From Akkermansiaceae bacterium (lineage in GTDB: Bacteria; Verrucomicrobiota; Verrucomicrobiia; Verrucomicrobiales; Akkermansiaceae): DNA of 64,000 nucleotides. How positions within the stretch are numbered: the stretch's first letter is position 1; every line of letters starts with the position of its first letter. Shown piece by piece: positions 26,216 to 28,707 of the stretch. The position numbers and the translations under genes are program-made. The notes below the pieces were generated by a model that did not search any database, was not told the origin of the DNA, and was given only the letters and a program-made list of their open reading frames with translations. The stretch is taken from contig JABDRB010000012.1 of NCBI GenBank assembly GCA_013041925.1, positions 62,001 through 126,000 of the forward strand. Direction: 5' to 3'.

Positions 26216-26423
26216 TAGCCTGTTCAACTGCCACCCAGATTGGACGGCGCGCAGAAACTCTACGAAGTGGGCCTTGAGATCAAGAGTAAAATGATAAATT
26301 TAACATTTCGTGAATCATTCCTTCTGTCAGTGCCGTCTCGGTGATGTGTTTTAGGCGGACTCGATGAGTGATTCCCCCGACTTCTTCGTGACAAAAAGAC
26401 GATTACTTGAGCATAATCACGCC

Positions 26424-26642
26424 ATGAAAGTTGAAATCGAATATTGCGAGCAGTGAAACTACCGTCCCCAAGCCGACCGTGTGTCGGCTGAGATCAATGA
26501 ATCTACTGGTATCGAGGTTACTCTTGTAGGTGGTAGTGGTGGCATTTTTGAAATCCGACGTGATGGTGAGCTTCTCTGGAAAAAAGAACGAGGCGGATCC
26601 TTTCCCGCTCGGGGTGAGGCGGCTAAGCTTTTTCTCCCGTGA
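26424..26642 (+). CDS. SelW-like (Rdx family) selenoprotein with in-frame TGA
   Basis: A 72-codon frame that reads through one TGA at codon 11 (26454-26456). The N-terminus is MKVEIEYCEQ, then the TGA codon, then NYRPQA. This matches the C-x-x-U redox motif and the following x-Y-R-P-x-A of SelW/Rdx thioredoxin-fold proteins. The rest fits the family too: strand GIEVTLVGGSGGIFEI, then RRDGELLWKKERGGSFP and a final helix GEAAKLFL, ending at a TGA at 26640. A hairpin at the expected bacterial SECIS distance lies just downstream of codon 11. A stop-codon-based gene finder will miss it. Requires SelA/SelB/SelD and tRNA-Sec elsewhere in the genome. Confidence 0.82.
26471..26489 (+). promoter_or_regulatory. 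candidate bacterial SECIS hairpin
   Basis: AGCCGAC (26471-26477) pairs perfectly with GTCGGCT (26483-26489) around the five-base loop CGTGT. The loop starts 21 bases after the in-frame TGA. Bacterial SECIS elements lie inside the coding region with an apical loop about 16-37 bases after UGA and a G among the first two loop bases; both conditions hold here. It would recruit SelB. Confidence 0.65.
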
Positions 26643-26789: not shown

Positions 26790-27647
26790 ATGATGAAACT
26801 CATTCGACACGGTGGTAGCGGCAGAGAGTCCCCTGGAGTTATCCTGCCTGGTGGTAGGATGGTTGATGCCTCGAATGAGTTCCGTGAGTATGACGAGGGT
26901 TTTTTTGCTTGTGGGGGGCTTGATTCACTACGCAGTTGGGTTGCGGATGGCTGCCCGGGAGGGTTTGAATTACCAACGGATGTCAGGCTGGGGTCACCTA
27001 TTGCCCGTCCGTCGAAGCTGGTTTGTGTTGGGAAAAATTATGCGGATCACGCCAAGGAGTTTGGTGGAGGAATGCCTGACGAGCCGGTCCTATTTATGAA
27101 AGCGACCACGGCATGCTGCGGTCCTTTTGATGAAGTCATCCTCCCAGCGGGATGTAAAAATTTGGATTATGAAGTGGAACTTGCCGTTGTTATTGGACGA
27201 ACGACAAAAAACATCAAAGAAGCCGAGGCGATGGGATCCATCGCGGGATACACGGTGATGTGCGACTACAGTGAGCGCGCATGGCAAAAAGAGCGTTGCG
27301 GTCAGTGGGTGAAAGGAAAGAGCGCCGACACCTTTGCGCCGCTCGGTCCGTATTTGGTGACGACGGACAACCTAACTGACCCGCAAAGTCTCTGTCTGTG
27401 GACGAAGGTCAATGGGGAGAAACGTCAGAACGGATGGAGTGGTGACATGACGTTTAGCGTTGCCTTCTTGGTGAGTTATATTTCCCAATTCATGACCCTG
27501 CTGCCAGGGGATGTGATTGCGACGGGAACCCCTGCGGGAGTCGGCATGGGGATGAAGCCGCCACGTTTTCTCTCGGCCGGCGATCAGGTCGAGTTGGGGA
27601 TCGAAGGCATTGGCATCATGCGCCAACGCGTCATCCCTGAAGGCTGA
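26790..27647 (+). CDS. fumarylacetoacetate hydrolase-family protein
   Basis: 285 residues, cytoplasmic. A short N-terminal domain precedes the catalytic FAH domain, which begins PSKLVCVGKNYADHAKEFG near residue 72. Metal-binding acidic residues are in NLDYEVELAVVIG (E-x-E) and the later DYSERAWQ region. The C-terminal GDVIATGTPAGVGMGMKPP is the family signature. The closest functional types are 2,4-diketo-3-deoxy-L-fuconate hydrolase and ureidoglycolate lyase-like enzymes; I cannot choose between them. It stands alone and converges on the moxR gene. Two ATGs in tandem leave the start uncertain by one codon. Confidence 0.88.
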   Translation: MMKLIRHGGSGRESPGVILPGGRMVDASNEFREYDEGFFACGGLDSLRSWVADGCPGGFELPTDVRLGSPIARPSKLVCVGKNYADHAKEFGGGMPDEPVLFMKATTACCGPFDEVILPAGCKNLDYEVELAVVIGRTTKNIKEAEAMGSIAGYTVMCDYSERAWQKERCGQWVKGKSADTFAPLGPYLVTTDNLTDPQSLCLWTKVNGEKRQNGWSGDMTFSVAFLVSYISQFMTLLPGDVIATGTPAGVGMGMKPPRFLSAGDQVELGIEGIGIMRQRVIPEG

Positions 27648-27723
27648 ACTTAGTGGGTTGCCTATCGCATTATCCTATCGGACGTCCGAAGATGTGCGGT
27701 CGTGCCATTTCGCCGCCCGCCCC

Positions 27724-28707
27724 TTACGGCACGGGGACACGAGCGAGGATACGATCGATGATGATATCGGTGGTGATGTCTTCGGCTTCCGCTTCATAGC
27801 TGGGAAGGATACGGTGGCGGAGGATGTCATGTGCCAGGTCCTTGATGTCTTGCGGGGTCACAAAGGATCGTCCATGCATGAAAGCCTTGGCGCGCGATGC
27901 CAAGGCCAGGTTGATCGTGGCACGGGGTGAGGCACCGACACGGATCAGGTTTTTCAAGTTGCTATCGACATTATCGGGGAAGCGGGTGGCATGCACGAGC
28001 TCGACGATGTATTTCCGCACAGCCTCATCGATGTAGATGTTATTGACGAGTTGGACGCTCGCCGACACCGTCGGAATATCCACCACTGGGGACGTTTGGT
28101 AAATCGGCTCGGAGGTTGCCATGCGGTCGAGGATCAGGAGTTCTTCGTCGCGGCTTGGGTAGTTCACCGTCACCTTGAGCAGGAATCGATCCAGTTGTGC
28201 TTCGGGGAGTTGGTAGGTGCCTTCTTGGTCGATCGGGTTTTGTGTGGCGAGGACCAGAAACGGATCGGGGAGTGGGTAGGTTGTGTCTCCGATCGTGACC
28301 TGACGTTCTTGCATTGCCTCGAGCAAGGCGGATTGCACTTTTGCGGGGGCTCGGTTGATTTCATCGGCGAGGATGAGATTACTAAAGATCGGGCCGAGTT
28401 TTGCCGAAAAGGTAGCCTCCTGCGGGTTGTAAATCATCGTTCCCAGCAAATCAGACGGCAGCAGGTCGGGTGTAAACTGGAGTCGGGCGAAATCTGTATC
28501 GATACAGCCCGAAAGCGCTTTGATGGCCAAGGTCTTTGCGAGCCCCGGCACCCCTTCCAAAAGGATGTGACCCTTGCATAAAAGCCCGACAATGAGACGA
28601 TCGACGAGGTCGGTCTGGCCGACCAGCACCTTGCTCAACTCATGTTTGACAGCAGGGACCCACTGGCAGGCGGATGTGATATGATCTGAAAGTTCTTCGT
28701 TGTTCAT
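27724..28707 (-). CDS. MoxR-family AAA+ ATPase
   Basis: 327 residues. The AAA+ core has Walker A EGVPGLAKT near residue 56, Walker B LILADEINRAPAK with the downstream SALLEAMQERQ, sensor 1 LATQNPIDQEGTYQLPEAQLDRF, and an arginine-finger/sensor 2 region in RVGASPRATINLALASRAKAF. MoxR proteins act as chaperones, usually with a VWA/DUF58 partner encoded next door. Here no VWA, DUF58 or transmembrane partner lies downstream; the next gene converges on it. It is therefore an orphan in this window. The coding start at 28707 has no Shine-Dalgarno sequence. Confidence 0.93.
   Translation of the reverse strand: MNNEELSDHITSACQWVPAVKHELSKVLVGQTDLVDRLIVGLLCKGHILLEGVPGLAKTLAIKALSGCIDTDFARLQFTPDLLPSDLLGTMIYNPQEATFSAKLGPIFSNLILADEINRAPAKVQSALLEAMQERQVTIGDTTYPLPDPFLVLATQNPIDQEGTYQLPEAQLDRFLLKVTVNYPSRDEELLILDRMATSEPIYQTSPVVDIPTVSASVQLVNNIYIDEAVRKYIVELVHATRFPDNVDSNLKNLIRVGASPRATINLALASRAKAFMHGRSFVTPQDIKDLAHDILRHRILPSYEAEAEDITTDIIIDRILARVPVP

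Follow-up and report, generated by a model that had tools for sequence, protein, structure and literature searches.

The stretch of DNA analysed here (64,000 nucleotides from an Akkermansiaceae bacterium; hereafter, the window) contains on its plus strand, at positions 26424-26642, a 72-codon gene of the Rdx/SelW family, whose frame is broken only by a TGA at codon 11 (26454-26456). The gene starts with an ATG (26424-26426) and ends with a TGA (26640-26642). Its read-through product would be MKVEIEYCEQ-U-NYRPQADRVSAEINESTGIEVTLVGGSGGIFEIRRDGELLWKKERGGSFPARGEAAKLFLP, a protein of 72 residues with selenocysteine (Sec) at position 11. The internal TGA takes the last place of the redox motif C-E-Q-U (C8-E-Q-U11, codons 8-11; 26445-26456). 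Re-reading the frame reproduced what the first-pass annotation had described, namely a 72-codon frame with a single TGA at codon 11, placed in a C-x-x-U motif. That annotation had also called the gene invisible to standard ORF calling. This is correct for the full gene, which the plain ORF list misses, but not for the locus as a whole, because a 53-aa fragment starting with GTG (26481-26642, plus strand) is listed in its place.

Upstream of the gene, and on the same strand, lie a -35-like hexamer, GTGACA (26388-26393), and a -10-like hexamer, CATAAT (26412-26417), which ends 6 bases before the ATG. This pair scored 10 of 12 in a promoter scan that found two sites against 0.3 expected, the second of which is located downstream of the gene. 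The GTGACA-18-CATAAT arrangement (26388-26423 in the window) is conserved in the genus. GTGACA is present at exactly -36 to -31 from the ATG in eight of ten genus members (own genome included) and one base nearer to the ATG in the other two, but at exactly -36 to -31 in none of the other 64 genes. The -10 box of the genus members reads CATAAT, CATACT, CATAGT or TACGAT, and is shifted by one base in one of them; a ribosome-binding-like word was found at -20 to -5 in three of the ten. The transcript would then start at or adjoining the ATG, giving a leaderless mRNA, and since the genus-conserved promoter ends six bases before the ATG, this suggests that Sec decoding takes place on a leaderless mRNA. 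In the open-licence literature we found no paper on leaderless mRNAs and start sites in Verrucomicrobia.

On family criteria, the gene product is assigned to the SELENOW-like family (Rdx, PF10262), with a predicted redox activity. With Cys in place of Sec, it matches the Pfam Rdx model with E=6e-17 and 62.1 bits (curated cut-off 22.6), and a match running through the TGA reaches 53.7 bits. The part downstream of the TGA, for which a family match had been proposed, is recognized by the same model on its own (E=3.3e-7, 30.8 bits). Regarding NCBIfam, the score for TIGR02174 (CXXU_selWTH) is 50 bits and lies above the cut-off of 34.2, and the score for the equivalog NF041051 (SelTWH_Campy) is 75.1 bits, below the cut-off of 88, so that the protein is not filed there. 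The structure predicted from 22 aligned sequences (mean pLDDT 93.6) is a thioredoxin-like Rdx fold. Its first strand spans residues 3-8, and the in-frame TGA follows shortly after it within CEQU, as in the C-x-x-U proteins of the family. The best match of the model among solved structures is 2fa8_A, a SelW-related bacterial protein (TM 0.88, E=1.6e-7). SelW-related proteins, or small bacterial proteins related to them, make up the top 21 PDB matches (TM 0.86-0.89); after the bacterial SelW-related structures follow MIEN1 (C17orf37) and mouse SelW (TM 0.62), the latter (2npb) being matched also in sequence (E=1.9e-6).

A perfect 7-bp stem closed by the loop CGTGT, with a G at loop position 2, is located at 26471-26489 (plus strand). 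It begins at the 15th base past the TGA, with 21 bases between the TGA and the loop, and these coordinates agree with the 7-bp, 5-base-loop hairpin first noticed there. According to the available text of PMC13188914, a bacterial SECIS is modelled with a loop of 3-9 and a stem of 4-16, a G among the first two loop bases, a distance of 16-37 nt from the UGA and an energy of at most -7.5. The window hairpin fits all of these values (loop 5, stem 7, G at position 2, 21 nt, -10.4 kcal/mol). Taken alone, its folding energy had a z-score of -4.2 and was equalled by 1 of 200 shuffles, for a piece picked after the hairpin had been seen; in a 58-nt context, the fold stood out only mildly (z -1.73, equalled by 11 of 200 shuffles). 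Single-sequence folding was therefore discarded as proof of a SECIS, also for two double-TGA relatives described below (L036, z 0.14; L029, z 0.02), which in context folded no better than shuffles. The main support for the hairpin is covariation.

For covariation, 74 genes were aligned from the TGA onwards. Of 75 assembled genes, L134, which has NYRG instead of NYxP, was missed by the pattern, and this gene looks intact. Left out of the 74 were the decayed L042, three Cys-type copies (L022, L023 and L091), a second copy in G510 (L114) and named duplicates of G loci. In this alignment, 91.4% of the cells of the stem are paired, and the covariation score is 0.500 compared to 0.186 for shuffled alignments, none of which, out of 500, scored as high; according to a warning of the tool, such controls are inflated by relatedness among the rows. 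When the partner is shifted by 1-3 columns, the paired cells fall to 10.8-51.6%. Of the five measures of covariation, one does not exceed its shuffles: the count of pairs with changes at both positions is 5, a value reached in 114 of 500. The two pairs adjacent to the loop are kept in each of the 74 sequences by way of several pair types; judged by eye, this is so even where the encoded residues change together (D with S, V with T or A, and A with A). The G at loop position 2 is also present in 74 of 74. Among the 70 distinct rows, the outer stem pairs are broken in 17 and 16. At least four unbroken loop-side pairs are found in 63 of the 74 genes and fewer in 11, and the energy limit, applied to a 24-nt piece, is reached by 56 and missed by 18.

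The genome carries the genes expected for the insertion of Sec, for which the first-pass annotation had advised looking. Matches were obtained for selA (504.2 bits), selB (324 bits), selD (370.5 bits) and tRNA-Sec (56.4 bits with the Rfam model; also called tRNA-SeC, anticodon TCA, by ARAGORN); the gene for the last shares its contig (C22) with the window and is separated from selW by about 133 kb. Among 14 control genomes, given without individual names, 5 likewise pass the cut-off of the Rfam tRNA-Sec model, and in two other machinery searches, which gave weaker matches to related families, controls exceeded the cut-off in 2 of 14 and 2 of 14. Since the controls match related families too, only machinery matches above the cut-off were used. 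Judged by this gene content, the genome is Sec-decoding. Its selD (L019:1501-2427) contains one in-frame TGA, within CAGUASKL, which we take to be the catalytic Cys/Sec position of SelD, and hence selD itself probably encodes a selenoprotein. None of the five molybdopterin enzyme (formate dehydrogenase type) domain matches in the genome has an in-frame TGA, and such an enzyme was therefore rejected as an additional reason for the Sec machinery.

The distribution of the gene was analysed in samples of 58 genomes, 386 genomes of the order and 387 genomes of the phylum, which overlap. Among the 58 (own genome included), 22 have an Rdx match and 31 have selA (in G009 as two fragments, both below the cut-off); selA is present in all 22 SelW genomes versus 9 of the 36 without SelW (Fisher p=5e-9). 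Conversely, SelW is present in 22 of the 31 selA-bearing genomes, with one copy decayed. In 53 further SelW genomes, selA was found in 51 (49 over the cut-off), the two misses being G701 (83% complete) and G585 (53% complete). In the sampled group, SelW therefore accompanies Sec decoding. In the order sample, 70 genomes yielded 74 Rdx matches, and all 70 have a TGA copy, one of them decayed (G045); the three stop-free matches (G013, G008 and G618) are of a CxxC-RW type and belong to genomes that also hold a TGA copy. In the phylum sample, 48 genomes have a match, 8 with TGA and 40 stop-free. The stop-free copies examined (33 of the 43 of order and phylum) have CxxC, then R/H/K/N, then W/F, and not NY; in the 30 from the phylum sample, the second residue after the CxxC is W or F.

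Within the genus, 9 of the 13 other genomes have the TGA gene together with its downstream protein and 4 have no match, which runs counter to a real stop without downstream conservation in close relatives. The first-pass annotation had named this, and a genome lacking Sec machinery, as what would refute its proposal, and neither applies. A FAH-like gene lies beside selW in eight of these nine (G001, G002, G003, G005, G009, G011, G012 and G013; not G008), and a MoxR-like gene is within the examined locus in seven of the nine. In the window, this FAH-like/MoxR-like neighbourhood spans 26790-28707; the loci compared in the relatives are L026, L028, L031, L032, L033, L034, L040, L043 and L044. With respect to selection, dS against the window is at or close to saturation (from 1.23 up to undefined values), and therefore only closer pairs are informative. 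Their dS and dN values are 2.10 and 0.069 for L043/L044, 0.54 and 0.068 for L026/L028, 0.49 and 0.068 for L026/L032, and 0.25 and 0.058 for L031/L033. A contrary pair is L028/L032, in which dN (0.038) is no lower than dS (0.03), on 5 changes.

Taken together, the frame, the family match, the conserved TGA, the covarying hairpin and the Sec machinery support the original proposal of a SelW-like selenoprotein. The predicted fold, the translation of Campylobacter jejuni SelW past its UGA and the placing of selW near selA in four of five more distant SelW genomes speak for it as well. We estimate a probability of about 96% that the gene encodes a 72-residue SELENOW-like (Rdx) selenoprotein, a small redox protein in which UGA codon 11 specifies Sec; the internal stop is almost certainly read as selenocysteine. 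The view that the TGA is a true stop, leaving either a decayed gene or a short peptide plus a 53-aa part started separately at GTG 26481, could draw on the 53-aa fragment of the plain ORF list and on the decayed copy in the relative G045, which has extra TAG and TAA codons. However, the parts before and after the TGA occur together in 74 genes of six family codes (f1, f2, f3, f10, f39 and f80), found with a pattern that required the motif, and the would-be GTG start is GCG, CTG, GTC or GTA in some members. The covarying stem and the fact that SelW presence tracks selA also argue against a true stop, which we consider very improbable.

Two further explanations appear even less probable. In a genetic code with TGA for Trp or Gly, the codon would be read as a residue other than Sec. 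We found no support for such a code; the same gene terminates in TGA, the genome has tRNA-Sec with the TCA anticodon as well as selA, selB and selD, and the position is the family's known Sec site (PMC13188914, in its available part). An error of sequencing or assembly that turned a Cys codon into TGA is conceivable in principle for single bases, and the assembly consists of 33 contigs, but the TGA is at the same place of the motif in all 70 Rdx-bearing genomes among the 386 of the order, and the three copies without a stop, out of 74 matches, represent a different type, CxxC-RW.

If codon 11 is indeed read as Sec, then, by analogy with established bacterial Sec decoding, SelB carrying GTP and Sec-tRNA-Sec would bind the hairpin at 26471-26489 immediately in front of the ribosome, and the UGA at codon 11 would then be decoded as Sec. 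C8 closes the first strand of the thioredoxin-like fold and U11 comes just after that strand; the two could form a reversible selenenylsulfide. The protein may thus act as a small thiol/selenol oxidoreductase that would be re-reduced by glutathione or a thioredoxin-like partner.

The window gene itself has a CxxU motif, but 15 of the 74 genes have a TGA also at the first position of the motif (UGMU in 12, and UGQU, UGVU and USKU in one each). These UxxU loci are L024, L029, L036, L089, L094, L095, L096, L097, L098, L099, L101, L102, L103, L105 and L131; they come from 14 of the 70 Rdx genomes of the order sample and one Rubritalea record (L089). A pattern scan of the genome contigs with Met fixed in the motif, and hence blind to other motif letters elsewhere, gave 16 stretches, 13 of which are in Verrucomicrobia-labelled records. 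Three pattern stretches (L077, L078 and L090) lack a SelW protein and were set aside as chance. In UxxU genes, the hairpin loop is AGTTT in 15 of 15 and lies 30 nt from the first UGA, within the 16-37 range of the model; 89 of 105 stem cells are paired, versus 384 of 413 in CxxU genes, and 7 of the 15 reach the energy limit. The UxxU genomes G034, G053 and G056 have selA, as do 10 of the 11 others from the order sample (not G585; G495 has a partial match). When the trait column is left out of tree building, UxxU takes four changes on the resulting tree, and the starred branches make at least four changes between Cys and Sec necessary, for a tree of 70 columns with many unresolved forks, in which gains are indistinguishable from losses.

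It is likely that the redox pair of Verrucomicrobiales SelW has repeatedly turned into a diselenide, with one hairpin after the second UGA placed for both UGAs. Such a repeated Cys/Sec exchange at the catalytic partner position, served by a single SECIS, would constitute a new variant of bacterial SelW. With the UxxU genes, two questions become accessible to tests: whether a single bacterial SECIS is able to direct the reading of two UGA codons spaced nine bases apart, and what advantage a diselenide offers compared with a selenenylsulfide in one and the same small protein. In the main text of the open-licence literature, we met no bacterial UxxU SELENOW, and UxxU SelW only for eukaryotes.

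Eukaryotic SELENOW shares with the window gene the Rdx family and a CxxU or UxxU motif, and the window gene matches mouse SelW 2npb. It differs in that the window hairpin lies within the coding region, whereas the eukaryotic SECIS is located in the 3' untranslated region. The Cys-form Rdx proteins of the CxxC-RW type found in relatives belong to the same Pfam family and were matched in the same searches, and solved SelW-related bacterial proteins have the same fold; unlike the window gene, these Cys forms have Cys for Sec and no stop (3 of the 74 order matches; 40 of the 48 matching phylum genomes). Two-Sec (UxxU) SELENOW is described for amphioxus and Ostreococcus lucimarinus in the parts available of PMC7539508, PMC2375036 and PMC3473315.

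The closest known counterparts are the bacterial SELENOW-like proteins (PF10262, CxxU), including SelW of C. jejuni. Like the window gene, these encode small Rdx proteins with CxxU and a SECIS just past the UGA, and they are sometimes missed by annotation (passages of PMC13188914, PMC1088965, PMC4607533 and PMC11955535). The window gene differs in coming from Verrucomicrobiales, and in lying over the TIGR02174 and under the NF041051 cut-off. We found no paper on SelW-like proteins in Verrucomicrobia in the open-licence literature. According to the available sections of two reviews, bacterial SELENOW-like proteins are catalogued with CxxU and one Sec (PMC13188914, 2026) or given with CxxU (PMC9312934, 2022). 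In excerpts of the metagenomic studies, SelW-like is the most abundant family of the Sargasso Sea set (PMC1088965) and tops the GOS table (PMC2398784). SelW-like proteins have few Cys homologues in Sec-using organisms, as stated in the part available of PMC1794560, which is the same pattern as in the present samples. In comparable extracts, SelW genes of Epsilonproteobacteria were overlooked by annotation (PMC4607533), and Ribo-seq together with peptides is reported to show that SelW of C. jejuni is translated beyond the UGA to its full length (PMC11955535). The window gene is thus ordinary in kind, a further and well-supported bacterial SELENOW-like CxxU selenoprotein that adds a gene missed by the plain ORF list; its UxxU relatives are less ordinary.

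Two further observations concern selW and selA in other genomes. The decayed selW copy of G045 (L042) is found in a genome that retains selA. In four of five distant SelW genomes of the phylum (G115, contig C88; G385, C73; G221, C9; and G069, C13; not G393), selW precedes selA on the same strand, at a distance of approximately 190-1300 bases.
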